From NCBI GenBank assembly GCA_937899725.1, contig CALCCA010000097.1, forward strand, positions 1 to 64,000: a stretch of DNA of 64,000 bases, given 5' to 3'. Below, piece after piece: positions 4,316-59,995 of the stretch; positions within the stretch are counted from its first letter, which is position 1, and every line of letters begins with the position of its first letter. A model generated the notes under the pieces. The model was not told the origin of the DNA, did not search any database, and saw nothing but the letters and a program-made list of their open reading frames with translations. The stretch is from an uncultured Halomicronema sp. (GTDB lineage Bacteria > Cyanobacteriota > Cyanobacteriia > Phormidesmidales > Phormidesmidaceae). Made by a program: the position numbers and the translations under genes.

Positions 4316-4675
4316 TTAGCTGGCAACCTGCTTAGGTGAACCCTGCAGCGCTTCTTCTTCTGTATCGTAAATCTCGAAGACTGAGTCCATCATGGTGACT
4401 TCAAAAACCAGCTTGGCTTCGGGATGGACACTGCAAATCCGGAAGCTCCCTTGAACCTTGTCCGCATCGCGCATGCCTGCGACCAGAGACGTCAAACCAG
4501 AGCTATCGATGAAATTGACCTGGCTGAGGTTGATCACCAGATGAGGGCTGAGTCGCGATATACAGTCTTGAAGATTAAGCCGAAACTGCCAAGCCGTCGT
4601 GATATCTAGACGCCCAGTGGGTGTGATCACGATAACTTGTCTACCATCGTCGGCGCTGTATGTTTTCTGATCCAT
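4316..4675 (-). CDS. STAS-domain protein (anti-sigma factor antagonist-like)
   Basis: A single-domain STAS protein of about 119 residues. The fold signature is clear: VITPTGRLDITTAW, then LVINLSQVNFIDSSGLTSLVAGM with the DSSGL loop whose Ser is the usual phosphorylation site in SpoIIAA-type anti-anti-sigma factors. Such proteins relay a phosphatase or kinase signal to a binding partner. No partner anti-sigma kinase or PP2C phosphatase is adjacent. I prefer the ATG at 4675 because GGAGGT lies upstream of it and the STAS fold starts soon after. A GTG at 4708 would add 11 residues. A second STAS domain occurs in the fusion gene at 46051. Confidence 0.87.
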   Translation of the reverse strand: MDQKTYSADDGRQVIVITPTGRLDITTAWQFRLNLQDCISRLSPHLVINLSQVNFIDSSGLTSLVAGMRDADKVQGSFRICSVHPEAKLVFEVTMMDSVFEIYDTEEEALQGSPKQVAS

Positions 4676-5326
4676 GCTTCTAGGGGAGACCTCCGCCTTA
4701 AGATTCACCTTTGCGGATTCAATCTAACAGGCGATGCTGATCCTTAAATATATGTTTGAGTTTGCCTCAGTGCTCAAAGCACCTTGGCGATGCTCTATCT
4801 CGAATTGATTCAGGCATCAATTGTGCATAATCCGACATTTCGAAGAGCACCGATGCGCTACTGCTATCACAGGCCTGAGCGTACTTATGATACCCAGACT
4901 TATCAGCAATATCGTGGCGCAGTCTGATCCCAAACGTCACCGTCCTTTCAGCGATCGCTATTCGTAGCATCACACTAGCGCATTACTAGCTCAATCGACG
5001 TTAAACGCGATACTTTAGAGCCCAACTGCATTGATGAAGAGTCTTAATATTCAAGTCGGACTGTCAGAGACGGCTCGTTTTTTGATTGGGTCACCCTGCC
5101 CATGCAAGTGAAGCGGTTACACAGGGCAAACGCCTCTGCTTCATAATTTTTCAGCGCTTGTCAGCATTGACGATTGAAAAGCTTGGCTATAAACAAATGC
5201 CCAATTTGAGTGTCTGATTGTAAACGACTGTTTCATTAAGGTTACATCCTGGATGTTCTGTCGGAGGGAACCAAAACCCCGTGATACGATGCGTTTCGTA
5301 GATTTGAACGATCTGGAGAAAAGCTC
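4676..5326. other. Intergenic region upstream of chlP
   Basis: About 650 bases. The frames here give poor protein-like translations, including a 68-codon minus-strand frame at 4767-4973. The final 100-150 bases should hold the chlP promoter and leader. A GGAG ribosome site ends about 10 bases before the chlP TTG start. No riboswitch-like structure was recognised. Confidence 0.4.
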
Positions 5327-6562
5327 TTGACACTGCGAGTTGCCGTTGTCGGAGGCGGGCCAGCGGGCTCCTCTGCTGCTGAAACCTTGGCCGAAGCTGG
5401 AATCGAAACGTATTTGCTGGAGCGCAAGCTAGATAATGCTAAGCCTTGCGGTGGGGCAATTCCGCTCTGCATGGTCGAAGAATTTGACCTGCCCCCCGAA
5501 ATTATTGATCGTCGCGTCCGCAAGATGAAGATGATCTCGCCGTCTGATATCGAAGTGAATATCGGCAGCACTCTCAAAGATGATGAATATATCGGCATGT
5601 GTCGCCGAGAAGTCTTAGATGGCTTTTTGCGCGATCGCGCTGAGAAATCTGGTGCCAAGCTCATCAACGGCACGATGCATAAGCTAGAGCTGCCTCAGGC
5701 CAGTGGTGAGCCCTACACCCTCCACTACACTGAGCATCGGCCCGATGGACTAGTTGGCGACGGCAAGAAGCTGCAGGTTGATCTGGTAATTGGGGCTGAT
5801 GGGGCGAACTCTCGTGTCGCCAAAGCAATTGACGCGGGTGACTACAACTATGCGATCGCGTTTCAAGAGCGTATCCGCATCCCCGATGACAAGATGGCCT
5901 ATTACGAAGAACTCGCCGAGATGTATGTTGGCAACGACGTCTCTCCCGACTTCTACGCCTGGGTTTTCCCGAAGTATGACCACGTAGCGGTTGGTACCGG
6001 CACCATGCGAGTCAACCAGGCCAAAATCAAATCACTGCAGGCCGGTATTCGCAAGCGGGCAGCCAAGCGCATTGAGGGTGGCGAAATCATCAAAGTTGAG
6101 GCCCACCCGATTCCTGAGCATCCGCGTCCGCGGCGGGTTGTGGGTCGAGTCGCCCTAGTTGGCGACGCGGCGGGTACGGTGACTAAGTCTTCGGGAGAAG
6201 GCATTTACTTCGCCGCTAAGTCTGGCCGCATGTGTGCCGAAGCCGTGGTGGAATTTTCCCGCGCGGGTCAGCAAGTACCTACCGAAGCCGATCTCAAGGT
6301 TTACATCAAGCGCTGGGATCAGCAATATGGCATCACTTACCTGGTGCTGGATCTATTGCAGCGAGTGTTTTACCGCAGTGATGCTTCGCGTGAAGCGTTT
6401 GTTGAAATGTGCGCCGATATGGATGTCCAGAAGCTCACGTTTGACAGCTATCTGTACAAGACGGTCGTACCGGCTAACCCTGTGACACAGCTCAAGATTA
6501 CGGCAAAAACAGTGGGTAGTTTGCTGCGGGGCAACGCGTTATCGCCCACCCGTTCTTGGTAA
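5327..6562 (+). CDS. chlP: Geranylgeranyl reductase ChlP
   Basis: A 411-residue FAD-dependent geranylgeranyl diphosphate/chlorophyll reductase. It reduces three double bonds of the geranylgeranyl chain to phytyl for chlorophyll a, tocopherol and phylloquinone synthesis. The N-terminal dinucleotide-binding motif VVGGGPAGSSAAE begins at about residue 6. The family blocks KPCGGAIP, CRREVLDGFLRDRA, VIGADGANSRVAKA and GDAAGTVTKSSGEGIYFA are all present. The start is TTG: no in-frame ATG precedes it, GGAG is suitably placed, and homologues begin at this point. A strong terminator follows 34 bases after the stop. It is monocistronic and highly confident. Confidence 0.96.
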   Translation: MTLRVAVVGGGPAGSSAAETLAEAGIETYLLERKLDNAKPCGGAIPLCMVEEFDLPPEIIDRRVRKMKMISPSDIEVNIGSTLKDDEYIGMCRREVLDGFLRDRAEKSGAKLINGTMHKLELPQASGEPYTLHYTEHRPDGLVGDGKKLQVDLVIGADGANSRVAKAIDAGDYNYAIAFQERIRIPDDKMAYYEELAEMYVGNDVSPDFYAWVFPKYDHVAVGTGTMRVNQAKIKSLQAGIRKRAAKRIEGGEIIKVEAHPIPEHPRPRRVVGRVALVGDAAGTVTKSSGEGIYFAAKSGRMCAEAVVEFSRAGQQVPTEADLKVYIKRWDQQYGITYLVLDLLQRVFYRSDASREAFVEMCADMDVQKLTFDSYLYKTVVPANPVTQLKITAKTVGSLLRGNALSPTRSW

Positions 6563-46050: not shown

Positions 46051-47055
46051 ATGCAATTAAATTCAACCCCGCCCCCGATTAGAACGAGCTTTGCCAATGG
46101 TGCCTGTACGATCTACATGCCGCCGACGCTAACCGTTGATGAAGCTGTTGATTTTCAGGGCCTTTGCCATCAAATTTTTACGCAACATCCGACTGGTTTA
46201 GAGCGCCTGACGTTAGATTTCAGCGACACGACCTTTTTAGACAGCAGCGGCTTAGGCTCGCTCGTGATCTGTCGTCGATTCTGCCATGACCATCAAACCG
46301 AACTGCTGCTGCGGCAGGTGGGATCACAGGTCATGTTGGTGCTGAGCATGACCGATCTCGACAAAGTGTTTACCATTGCGCAACAAGCGCCTCAAGAGAC
46401 ACATTTGCCCAACCGGCCAATGATCGAACGCCGGATGATCGCGACTCACCCATCAGTGACCTCTAAAGCCAAGCGAGCGATGGATATTGTTGGAGGGTTA
46501 ACCGGGCTAACGATCACGGCGACTCTCTTACTCCCGATCGCGATCGCCATTTGGGTGGATGATCCGGGGCCGATTTTGTTTAGTCAGGTGCGATGTTCTT
46601 GGATGGGCCGTCGGTTTCGCATCTGGAAGTTTCGCTCGATGGTCGTGAATGCTGAAGCCCTCAAAAACCGAGTTAAAAATGAAGTCGAAGGCCCTCTCTT
46701 TAAAAACGAACGTGACCCCCGAGTCACCCGTGTCGGGCGGTTTTTACGCAAGACGAGCCTGGATGAGTTTCCGCAGTTTTGGAACGTGCTGAAGGGCGAA
46801 ATGAGCCTGGTGGGAACGCGTCCCCCTACGCCAGCGGAAATTGCAGAATACGAGGTACCGGCTTGGCAACGACTCAACGTGAAGCCTGGCCTGACCGGAG
46901 AATGGCAGGTCAGCGGGCGATCGAGCATCAAAAAGTTTGAGGACGTGATTCGCCTCGATATGCGCTACCAGGAAAACTGGAGCCTACTCTACGACATCAA
47001 ACTGATGGTCAAAACGGTTTTGGTCTTATTCACCAAGGATTCGGGCGCGGCTTGA
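46051..47055 (+). CDS. STAS domain fused to a phosphoglycosyltransferase (sugar transferase)
   Basis: A 334-residue two-domain protein. Residues 1-115 are a STAS domain ([24 protein letters not shown], with the DSSGLG loop of anti-anti-sigma factors). Residues about 145-334 are a monotopic polyprenyl-phosphate sugar-1-phosphate transferase: [22 protein letters not shown] as the membrane hairpin, [21 protein letters not shown], the catalytic Asp-Glu dyad in [26 protein letters not shown], and [17 protein letters not shown]. It would start an exopolysaccharide repeat unit, with the STAS part presumably controlling it. The fusion is one continuous frame with an ATG start. No glycosyltransferase cluster follows. 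Confidence 0.92.
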
Positions 47056-47503: not shown

Positions 47504-48417
47504 CGTCAAACCAGTCTGGGTTAATAATCGCAGCCTTTCTGAGCCCAGGCTTGGCTCAGTTTTTCGGAACTTGGCCGCCCGTTTTCAGAAATCGCCCCCT
47601 GATTTTCATGTCCAGTCAAGGGGAGTCCAGACTATCCCAATCGCCTCACGTTCTTGCTTGGAGCAATGGCTCAAAATGAGTCTCAGGTTTTGGAAATACT
47701 CGGCCCAGCTATCTTTCCTGAAAGCCGTTGGTGAACAAAAAGCTCACTACTTTTTGTCTGCATTCTTGTTTTCGGAAAAGAGAATATTTTTTGAAACTAT
47801 GAGGAATAGCAATTCTCGATATTCTTTATCAAAAGTGAGAAGAGAGCAAAATTAAGCCGGAAAACAAATTTTTAAGTGCGACTGAAATACTCCAATTTTA
47901 TCAATCTAACAGTCTATATCGTGAATGAGATCGGCAGACAACAGAGTTTATAGCGCAGTCTATTTCAGTGCCTCATCAAGCATGAGGTAGCGGGCATTCA
48001 GGTGATCTCACTATTTTGTTAAACGTTCTTTCTGCGTATTTATACATGAACTGTCGCTGCTAGGTAATACAGGTCAGTGCTGGTAGAAATCCTAAGATTG
48101 CCTAATACTATGGCAATTGCCGTTTGTAGCTCGGGCTTCTTTTTTTGCTCGTTAGTGTTAGCTAACTTGAGGGAAGGCTGAAAGCACAATCACTAGACTT
48201 ACTGGTGTAGAACAAATAGAAACTTTCAGGCCATGCCACATCGGCATTTCAGCAATCTCACTGTGGTCTCACGACAGGCCTAATATCTCCCGTGAAAAAT
48301 TAATTTTCTAGAGTTGTGTGGGCCACGGACTGTGTGTTGTTCGCATTCGGTTATCTGTCGGGTCACCTGCTTTTCTTTGACTTGGTTCGGCTTTCTCGCT
48401 CTTCACTGCTTAGCACT
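47504..48417. other. Intergenic, no convincing gene
   Basis: About 910 bases, relatively AT-rich. A 94-codon plus-strand frame at 47571-47855 (Lys/Ser/Phe-rich) lacks a family-like pattern and looks spurious. The stretch near 48300 should contain the hybrid kinase promoter. Confidence 0.4.
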
Positions 48418-57579: not shown

Positions 57580-58464
57580 ATGGAAACATCGCCCCTGACC
57601 CGACCCGAGCCCACGTGGAAAGCCATTCTGCGACTCATGCGTTGGGACAAACCCACCGGGCGCTTGATTTTGATGGTGCCGGCGCTGTGGTCCTTATTTT
57701 TAGCGGCGCGGGGCACCCCCCCCTGGGGGCTGCTGGTCGTTATTATTGTCGGCAGCCTGATCACGAGTGCAGCGGGCTGCATCGTCAATGACCTGTGGGA
57801 TCGCGACATTGATCCGCAGGTGCAGCGCACCCGCACCCGGCCATTAGCCTCTAAGGCCCTCTCGGTGCGGATCGCGATCGGGCTGGCGATTATCGCGTTT
57901 CTCTGCGCCTATGGCCTCACTTTCTATCTCAATCGCCTCACCTTTTGGCTTTGTGTGGCCGCCGTGCCCGTGATTGTGCTTTATCCCTTAGCTAAGCGCG
58001 TGTTTCCGGTGCCGCAGCTAGTGCTGGCGATCGCCTGGGGGTTTGCCGTACTGATTCCCTGGGCGGCAGTAACCGGAGCGTTAGAACCAGCGGCTTGGCT
58101 GCTATGGGGGGCGGTTGTTTCTTGGACGTTGGGGTTTGATACGGTTTATGCCATTCCCGATCGTGAGTTTGATGCCCGCCTCGGCGTCAATTCCAGCGCG
58201 CGATTTTTTGGGCGGCGCACACCGCAGGCAGTGACGCTGTTTTTTGCCGTAGCGGTCGTCCTGCTGGGCCTGACCGGCTGGGTCATGGCGTTAAGCTGGC
58301 CCTACTGGGTGACGCTGGTGTTGGCCATTGTCGTCTGGGGTCGCGAAGGCTATTTGCTCAGCTTGTACAATCCCCCGCCGTCGCTCTATGGGCGCATCTT
58401 TCGGCAAAATGTGCTGCTGGGCTTTGCCCTGCTGGGCGGCATGGTGCTGGGCTTACTGCTCTAA
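57580..58464 (+). CDS. ubiA: 4-hydroxybenzoate polyprenyltransferase
   Basis: A 294-residue membrane prenyltransferase of the UbiA superfamily. Eight to nine hydrophobic segments; the first Asp motif is NDLWDRDIDPQVQRTRTRPLA and the second is TVYAIPDREFDARLGVNSSA. In cyanobacteria this enzyme transfers solanesyl to 4-hydroxybenzoate, the committed step in plastoquinone synthesis. The ATG at 57580 gives ETSPLTRPEPTWKAILRLMRWDKPTGRL, the usual N-terminus. It is divergent from pncB. The plastoquinone role is inferred from family and organism. Confidence 0.95.
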   Translation: METSPLTRPEPTWKAILRLMRWDKPTGRLILMVPALWSLFLAARGTPPWGLLVVIIVGSLITSAAGCIVNDLWDRDIDPQVQRTRTRPLASKALSVRIAIGLAIIAFLCAYGLTFYLNRLTFWLCVAAVPVIVLYPLAKRVFPVPQLVLAIAWGFAVLIPWAAVTGALEPAAWLLWGAVVSWTLGFDTVYAIPDREFDARLGVNSSARFFGRRTPQAVTLFFAVAVVLLGLTGWVMALSWPYWVTLVLAIVVWGREGYLLSLYNPPPSLYGRIFRQNVLLGFALLGGMVLGLLL

Positions 58465-58552
58465 GCCATCGGTTGCTGCAGGCGGGTTTGAGCCCGCCCA
58501 TCGAGGGCCTGGAAATGGGGTGTCAGGGGAGCCGATCGCGGAGGCTAGAAAC

Positions 58553-59995
58553 ATGGGGATGAATTGGTGCAACCGAGCACTGGGTATCGGTGGGGGACTT
58601 CTCGGGGCGATCGCCGCCACCGGCCCGGCCGTCGCGCTATGCCCCGCCGATTTGCCAGGGGCAATGGAAGCGATCGCCCAGCACTCAGAGTTGGCCCGTG
58701 CTCGCGTCGGCATGCAGATAGAAACGCTGGACGGCGAGGCCGTTTATAGCCAGTCGGGCGATCGCTTTTTTGTACCCGCTTCCGCCCTAAAACTGGTGAC
58801 CACCGCTGCCGTGCTGACCGAACTCGGCCCCGATTACCGCATTCGCACCGCTGTCTTGGGCACGGTTGATGGGGCAGGCCGGGCCACGCTGCAGGTTGTC
58901 GGTCGCGGTGACCCGAGTTTTGATCAGGCTGATCTCGCCGACTTGGCACGTCAAATTGGTGAACTAAACGTGCGTCAGGTCGATATTTTGTATGGGGACG
59001 ACAGCGCGTTTGTCGGCGAGGCCGTTAACCCCAATTGGGAATGGGAAGATGTGCAGGCGGGCTACGGTGCGCCGATCAACGCCCTGATTTTAGAGGAAAA
59101 CGAAATCGGCCTAAGTCTGCACCCCCAAGCCGTGGGGCAACCGCTGCAGGTAGTGTGGGATGTCCCCAGACAGGGAACGGGGTGGACGATTGAGAACGCA
59201 ACGCGCACCGTCGCGCCGGGGGAGTCTGAGTTTGTCAGCGTCGGGCGCGATTTGAGCCGTCCAATACTGCAGGTCGCGGGACAGCTCGTTGCCGGATCGC
59301 CTCCTGAGCCTGTTGCCATTGCCGAGCCAAATCCGGGGGCAGCCTTTCTTAATGCGTTGCAAACAGCATTGGCAGAGCAAGGCATTGAGGTACAGCAAGT
59401 GCGCCTAGGACCGTCGCCCGCTACCCAAGACTGGAGTGAGCTGGCCGTCGTGCAGTCACCGCCGCTGGCCGAGTTGCTTATCCCCACCAATCAAAGCAGC
59501 AACAATCTCTATGCGGAGGCGCTGCTCAAAACGCTGGGCAGTCGCAATTCGTCAGCCGAGGACGCGACAGCCGCAGGCATCGAGCTTGCTCTGAACCGTC
59601 TGCAAACGCTGGGGCTTGATCCGGCGGATGTGGTGATGGTGGATGGGGCAGGCTTGGCGCGAAAGAACCTGATCACCCCGGCGGCGCTGGTCGATGTGCT
59701 GCAAATCATGGCGCGATCGCCCCAAGCCGAGGTCTTTCGCGAGTCGTTGGCAGTGGCCGGGCAGAGCGGCACGCTGCGTAATCGCTGGCTCGACACACCC
59801 GTTGAGGGGCAGTTAAGCGGCAAATCTGGGGCCATCAGCCGCAATTTTGCCCTGGCGGGCTACCTACAGCCTGAGCGCTATGCGCCGGTTGCTTTCACCA
59901 TTTTTCTCAACAATATTGACGCCCCCGGTCGCGTCGCGCGATCGCTGATTGATGACATGGTGCTCGCGATCGCCACCCTTGAACCCTGTGAATAA
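58553..59995 (+). CDS. dacB: D-Ala-D-Ala carboxypeptidase/endopeptidase (PBP4 type)
   Basis: A periplasmic serine peptidase of about 480 residues that trims peptidoglycan stem peptides (class C low-molecular-weight PBP, DacB). A signal peptide (about 8-28) precedes the catalytic domain. SxxK is SALK in FVPASALKLVTTA. SxN is SSN in NQSSNNLYAEALLK, and KTG is KSG in LSGKSGAISRNFA. The large insert between SxxK and SxN is normal for PBP4. The frame opens at 58328 inside ubiA, but the ATG at 58553 has GGAGG about 8 bases upstream and starts the signal peptide. It is 88 bases after ubiA and may share its transcript. Confidence 0.93.
   Translation: MGMNWCNRALGIGGGLLGAIAATGPAVALCPADLPGAMEAIAQHSELARARVGMQIETLDGEAVYSQSGDRFFVPASALKLVTTAAVLTELGPDYRIRTAVLGTVDGAGRATLQVVGRGDPSFDQADLADLARQIGELNVRQVDILYGDDSAFVGEAVNPNWEWEDVQAGYGAPINALILEENEIGLSLHPQAVGQPLQVVWDVPRQGTGWTIENATRTVAPGESEFVSVGRDLSRPILQVAGQLVAGSPPEPVAIAEPNPGAAFLNALQTALAEQGIEVQQVRLGPSPATQDWSELAVVQSPPLAELLIPTNQSSNNLYAEALLKTLGSRNSSAEDATAAGIELALNRLQTLGLDPADVVMVDGAGLARKNLITPAALVDVLQIMARSPQAEVFRESLAVAGQSGTLRNRWLDTPVEGQLSGKSGAISRNFALAGYLQPERYAPVAFTIFLNNIDAPGRVARSLIDDMVLAIATLEPCE

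Follow-up and report, generated by a model that had tools for sequence, protein, structure and literature searches.

In Vibrio fischeri, the STAS protein SypA is controlled by phosphorylation of Ser56, is active when unphosphorylated and affects polysaccharide below the level of transcription (PMC4517449, PMC10120452); its target was termed unknown in 2023 (PMC10120452), as was its level of action in 2024 (PMC11112999). The V. diabolicus eps locus, orthologous to syp, encodes a STAS protein (A) together with a priming transferase (R) (PMC5801674). In the cyanobacterium Nostoc punctiforme, the HmpU-HmpV-HmpW partner switch acts on hormogonium motility and polysaccharide, with the STAS protein HmpV as its output (PMC6495340, PMC8256260). 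In Myxococcus xanthus, the phosphorylated switch protein EpsW is proposed to activate EpsZ, an initiating phosphoglycosyltransferase (PGT), with direct contact suggested. A 2025 paper put this forward as a new model, in which a PGT is switched on by a partner protein in its phosphorylated form; it also recounts how the Staphylococcus aureus tyrosine kinase CapB1 phosphorylates the small monotopic PGT CapM, raising its activity, and cites O'Toole 2021 for small PGTs that bear regulatory domains, receivers among them (PMC12802240). In Anabaena PCC 7120, a review places a STAS domain at the N-terminus of the glycosyltransferase all4160 (PMC8256260), and the gene is among those outside the HEP island needed for heterocyst envelope polysaccharide synthesis (PMC4390870), so a STAS-glycosyltransferase architecture is already in print. 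Here, we describe a gene in the first 64,000 nucleotides of contig CALCCA010000097.1 (assembly GCA_937899725.1, an uncultured Halomicronema sp.), a stretch referred to as the window, whose product fuses a STAS domain to a monotopic PGT and whose relatives in part lie beside genes for an RsbW-type kinase, a SpoIIE-type phosphatase and a free STAS protein.

The fusion would share with SypE-SypA a Ser-phosphorylated STAS domain acting on polysaccharide, whereas SypA is a free STAS protein and SypE combines kinase and phosphatase activity in one protein. HmpV likewise offers a cyanobacterial partner switch that touches polysaccharide with a STAS protein as output, but it is free, and its effector is called undefined in the part of the report cited (PMC6495340). 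EpsW has a receiver domain and works in trans, its PGT being of the large type, whereas in the window gene a STAS domain is joined in cis to the core of a small PGT. CapM resembles the fusion in being a small monotopic PGT under protein-phosphorylation control, but there the enzyme itself is phosphorylated, with no STAS domain and no SpoIIE phosphatase. Compared by description only, all4160 probably belongs to the same family as the window gene; its published description, in the portions cited here, mentions no kinase, phosphatase or switching (PMC8256260, PMC4390870).

The STAS-PGT fusion gene occupies 46051..47055 on the forward strand (stop codon included) and opens with ATG into a single open frame of 334 aa. 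Its STAS domain (residues 1-112, 46051..46386) matches PF01740 over residues 47-111 with 35.8 bits against a cut-off of 22.6, and contains a DSSGLG loop at D64-S65-S66-G67-L68-G69, in which S65 (codon AGC, 46243..46245) is the predicted phosphoacceptor. A variable linker (residues 113-132, 46387..46446) leads to the PGT part (residues 133-334, 46447..47052), which begins with an HPSV motif followed by the monotopic PGT catalytic domain, matching Bac_transf (PF02397) over residues 141-327 with 218.3 bits against a cut-off of 27. A long hydrophobic helix at residues 139-170 (46465..46560) is presumably the re-entrant membrane helix of the family, and the Asp-Glu dyad D238-E239 (46762..46767) is, as in the monotopic PGT family, taken to be catalytic. 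The original prediction, made from the sequence alone, had read this region as one unbroken frame with an intact DSSGLG loop and Asp-Glu dyad, and the domain matches bear it out: PF02397 and the dyad identify a monotopic PGT, and PF01740 and the predicted fold a STAS domain. Two narrower assignments were rejected. The large-PGT model TIGR03025 (WbaP type) aligns over residues 64-330 with 281.5 bits, below its cut-off of 295.55, and the PGT is preceded by a STAS domain, not by four helices; the model for strict anti-anti-sigma factors (anti-sigma factor antagonist, TIGR00377) gives 34.1 bits against a cut-off of 53.45. The window's genome (G000, whose contig C97 opens with the window) contains six Bac_transf genes and eight STAS matches, which overlap only in the window gene.

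The window gene is confirmed as one intact STAS-PGT gene and no artefact. A metagenome-assembled genome (MAG) locus, L037, matches the window protein at 99% identity over residues 1-334, and a genome of the same genus, G170, carries the fusion at 75% identity; a frameshift or misassembly joining two genes, which the original prediction had named as a possible source of error together with absence of the fusion from all relatives, is thereby ruled out. Between the window gene and L037 the ratio of nonsynonymous to synonymous substitution rates is 0.05 over residues 1-112, and the PGT part differs by no amino acid. In G170, as in the window, the upstream gene is divergent, its first residues closely resembling those of the window's tetrapyrrole methylase, which indicates a stable locus. 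The suggestion that related fusions may exist in other cyanobacteria proved an understatement: matches spanning both STAS and PGT number at least 75, and of 292 genomes drawn from across the phylum at least 67 carry them; the 75 listed include two that begin at query residue 47 or 48 (G093 and G076) and one with an internal stop (G080 C23).

Seven residues (T60, D64, S65, G67, H133, D238 and E239) are invariant in all 72 aligned fusions, a set that includes near-copies (L028 and L048 are identical), frames cut or broken in their locus (L053, L065, L069, L080) and genomes possibly repeating others; S66 is kept in 69 of 72, and the linker varies freely. For the tree, these four cut or broken frames were dropped, and seven rows of 708-718 aa and that of L026 were shortened to the STAS-PGT region. 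Broken copies also occur. On contig C11 of G215, of the same family, positions 58379-59098 hold a partial fusion copy with one TGA and two TAG stops, probably a decaying pseudogene, and in L070 (5920-6950, a MAG from a Kiruna bin) the STAS and PGT parts are read in two different frames that overlap, beside an intact kinase frame, reflecting either sequencing error or a real break.

An AlphaFold2 model of the window protein (mean predicted local distance difference test score, pLDDT, 71; predicted template modelling score, pTM, 0.50) comprises a confident STAS fold at about residues 5-112, a low-confidence linker (pLDDT below 50 at residues 113-130), the long helix at residues 139-170 and a PGT domain in which confidence varies. 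The closest structural matches of the STAS part are RsbV/SpoIIAA-type proteins (TM1442, Z 17.2, 1.9 Å over 106 residues; SpoIIAA of the SpoIIAB complex, Z 16.4, 1.6 Å over 106 residues), and those of the PGT part are PglC and WbaP (the latter with Z 11.9, 4.0 Å over 156 residues, 35% identity). S65 starts a helix (residues 65-80) and in the alignment stands opposite the first Ser of the SpoIIAA DSSGLG, which we take to be Ser58, the phosphorylated residue of SpoIIAA.

A gene for an RsbW-type (HATPase_c_2) kinase lies within 1 kb downstream of at least 29 of the 75 listed fusions (29 of the 67 genomes), on the same strand in 28 of these cases; a short list of higher-scoring kinase places and all 150 places both give 29. 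As a control, listed PGT matches without STAS coverage were compared with the same 150 kinase places, and a kinase was nearby in 2 of 74, three of these 74 beginning at query residues 63, 84 and 95 (possible STAS remnants) and two having an internal stop. One of the two exceptions (G175) is a frame-broken fusion whose kinase sequence is the same as that of L070, and the other (G097) starts 129 bases from a contig end. Fisher's test gives p = 2.4e-8 with 2/74 as the control and 1.5e-10 with 0/72; the G215 copy, with three stops over query residues 12-253, was excluded from both fusion and control sets. Since both exceptions are damaged or cut fusions, the kinase linkage tracks the STAS domain and not PGTs generally. 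Twelve aligned kinases keep the E52...N56 box, and their profile matches Bacillus subtilis RsbW in the PDB (E 6.2e-8). Ten of the 12 had been picked for adjacency and two come from the window's genome, so that profile scores favour these sequences; gene position is independent of the profile. On contig C177 of G203, a kinase match downstream of the fusion (83303-83734) falls within a 650-aa open frame, which suggests a possible fusion to a further domain.

Kinase, SpoIIE phosphatase and free STAS genes occur together in at least 8 of 47 inspected loci (six Nostocales loci, G229 and G213), a lower bound given that the locus script missed the kinase of G099 and the PGT of L064 and that flank lengths differ. 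Pfam was run on proteins from L049, L050, G229 and G213, covering parts of three of these eight loci. Five of the eight also contain Alg13, Alg14 and GT2 genes.

These observations lead us to favour, with some reserve, a reading in which the fusion is an initiating PGT with a STAS partner switch built in to govern its activity. The PGT would transfer a sugar-1-phosphate onto undecaprenyl phosphate, initiating polysaccharide assembly. An RsbW-type serine kinase would bind the STAS domain, phosphorylate S65 and keep the PGT off; a SpoIIE-type phosphatase, often fused with a response regulator, would dephosphorylate S65 and turn it on; and a free STAS protein, where encoded, could compete for the kinase. 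The output of such a partner switch would be a PGT in place of the usual sigma factor. The data show the fusion itself, the conservation of S65 and of the Asp-Glu dyad and, in relatives, the linkage to kinase, phosphatase and free STAS genes; we infer S65 phosphorylation and its effect on activity, as well as membrane insertion and the sugar substrate, and the direction of the switch, active when unphosphorylated, is assumed by analogy with SypA. The original prediction that matrix synthesis could be gated by Ser phosphorylation thus gains circumstantial support for the family, from S65 (72/72), the adjoining kinase (29/75 listed) and the full module (8/47). For the window protein it stays a prediction: the flanks of its clade yielded no linked-type kinase or SpoIIE gene, and its genome's candidate kinases group apart from the linked ones.

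Several results weigh against this reading. Scanning the window, L150 (G170) and 13 further loci with profiles did not reveal a linked-type kinase or SpoIIE gene flanking the 15-protein clade to which the window protein belongs, with the limits that L047 extends 83 bases downstream and cannot be judged and that four others extend 1.3-1.7 kb downstream. Across the listed fusions, 46 of 75 have no listed kinase alongside. The predicted phosphoacceptor Ser is present at the SpoIIAA position, and kinase and SpoIIE genes stand alongside in part of the relatives and were not found beside the window gene, so the switch reading for the window protein leans on homology and on the retention of S65; any kinase and phosphatase serving it would be encoded at other places of its genome. 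In favour of the reading, this genome has three strong SpoIIE matches and four strong stand-alone HATPase_c_2 genes (on C173, C88, C9 and C115); no HATPase_c_2 or SpoIIE match above cut-off lies within the window. The best kinase candidates, C173 and C9, are the most similar to linked kinases yet group with unlinked ones (the split has moderate support of 82-84), and their group also has members in G060 and G011, two genomes in which the best PGT match is without STAS. The idea that the C173 kinase (L117) is a lost operon kinase was dropped, the tree giving it no support. All 72 S65 codons are AGC or AGT, so the invariance of S65 gains nothing from codon switching. In a mirror-tree test of 24 pairs, kinase distance had a partial r of 0.58 with STAS distance and of 0.41 with PGT distance; since PGT distance also correlates, the test is weak, and with permutations that ignore relatedness its result is suggestive only. 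Finally, with pTM at 0.50 and residues 266-288 below pLDDT 50, the arrangement of the STAS and PGT domains is not given by the model. On the tree, whose root is not known, linkage appears in two groups either side of the window's clade with six changes in total, a pattern to be expected if an ancient linkage was lost in places or if linkage arose more than once.

The main rival to the switch reading, which we consider rather unlikely, is that the STAS domain is purely structural: a constitutive assembly or dimerisation module that replaces the N-terminal transmembrane bundle and cytoplasmic domain of unknown function of large PGTs, or that docks the next transferases, and that phosphorylation is not involved, at any rate in the clade of the window protein. 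The sub-threshold TIGR03025 alignment over residues 64-330 is consistent with such a replacement, the missing linked-type kinase beside the window's clade agrees with it, and scaffolding would suit the L076 chain, in which Alg13-like and Alg14-like parts precede the fusion, and six further loci with frames of like length that have the match at their far end (described below). A structural role does not account for S65 being invariant even in the unlinked clade, nor for the kinase adjoining 29 of 75 listed fusions.

A less probable alternative makes the PGT a sensor, its STAS domain titrating the kinase as an anti-sigma factor and so reporting the state of the pathway to transcription. RsbW-type kinases (RsbW, SpoIIAB) are classically anti-sigma factors, and the fusion could compete for one. 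Against this, no sigma factor was found among 20 Pfam-scanned proteins from relatives' loci, a weak argument given that these are a small part of the neighbours, and published accounts of SypA and HmpV make the STAS protein the output (PMC10120452, PMC6495340). That the fusion is an artefact or a degenerate product without function is very improbable. Broken copies do exist, with internal stops in G215 and in one of the G080 matches and with the two domains out of frame in L070, but the fusion is listed in at least 67 genomes with both domains under constraint, and for the window gene L037 and G170 refute the idea outright.

In a number of relatives the fusion sits within a polysaccharide cluster. 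The Nostocales order of the L049/L050 type runs glycosyltransferase-like, flippase-like, two GT2, Alg14, Alg13, STAS-PGT, kinase and free STAS; the first two labels come from the sequence by eye and from clustering, and the Alg14, Alg13 and GT2 genes are Pfam-confirmed in L049. A response regulator-SpoIIE gene follows on the opposite strand in L050, L051, L052, L054, L056 and L061, and a long receiver-bearing protein is also present in L050, L054, L056 and L061 (by Pfam a hybrid histidine kinase in L050). G229 has the order STAS-PGT, kinase, PAS-SpoIIE, STAS, and G213 kinase, receiver-SpoIIE, STAS, Alg13-like, STAS-PGT. The description of the window gene as a stand-alone control point therefore holds for the window and fails for these relatives.

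Seven proteins of 708-718 aa, in Pseudanabaena and Phormidium records, carry the STAS-PGT at their far end. In L076 (1290-3440), the one examined by Pfam, a 717-aa chain combines Alg13-like, Alg14-like, STAS and PGT parts, and frames of like length occur in L083, L085, L089, L096, L098 and L110; such a chain would possibly let a single polypeptide carry out the two opening steps of repeat-unit assembly. In L026, an Alg13-like part stands ahead of the STAS-PGT. Upstream of the fusion, a DUF3318 protein is encoded in L191 (8434-9099, by Pfam) and L193 (5693-6340, by eye), and L048, L057, L058 and L062 have in this place a protein of a separate BLAST cluster, c15, of a size like the DUF3318 protein. 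In L052 (Calothrix sp. PCC 7103), a transposase-like frame, recognised by eye, lies at 4802-5638 on the reverse strand between two pieces of an Alg13-like gene.

Around the window gene, Pfam identifies a CobB/CobQ-type amidotransferase, a solute-binding protein, an ABC ATPase and the tetrapyrrole methylase upstream, and a hybrid histidine kinase and a response regulator-histidine kinase downstream. The original claim that no polysaccharide gene is adjacent holds for these Pfam-tested neighbours, which leave out a 94-aa frame at 47571-47855. An Alg13-Alg14 pair of the same genome is on contig C157, away from the fusion. The free STAS protein predicted at 4316 is also real: the gene at 4316-4708 on the reverse strand, about 41 kb from the fusion, encodes an IDSSGL motif and scores 63.8 bits to STAS (114 of 130 aa were run).

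What is new here is the kinase linkage and the kinase/SpoIIE/free STAS module around a STAS-PGT, novelty in print being limited to the open literature searched. That search, with subscription papers mostly outside it, found neither such a module nor a partner switch ending on a PGT, and no paper joining 'STAS domain' with 'sugar transferase' and 'cyanobacteria', or with 'phosphoglycosyl transferase'. More tentatively than for the switch itself, we suggest that cyanobacteria may possess a partner switch that ends on a biosynthetic enzyme, and that the same logic in trans could explain SypA and HmpV, a free STAS protein there acting on the initiating PGT. In the parts of the papers cited, the STAS proteins governing polysaccharide in Vibrio and Nostoc are given no target (PMC10120452, PMC11112999, PMC6495340); the STAS-PGT makes the question testable, since a natural STAS-PGT link with kinase and phosphatase genes beside it names a concrete candidate target for polysaccharide STAS proteins. 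Control at the PGT step matters because the carrier on which PGTs depend, undecaprenyl phosphate, is in limited supply and also serves other glycoconjugate pathways (PMC12802240). If the switch reading is true, slime production may be switched directly at the first step of surface polysaccharide synthesis.
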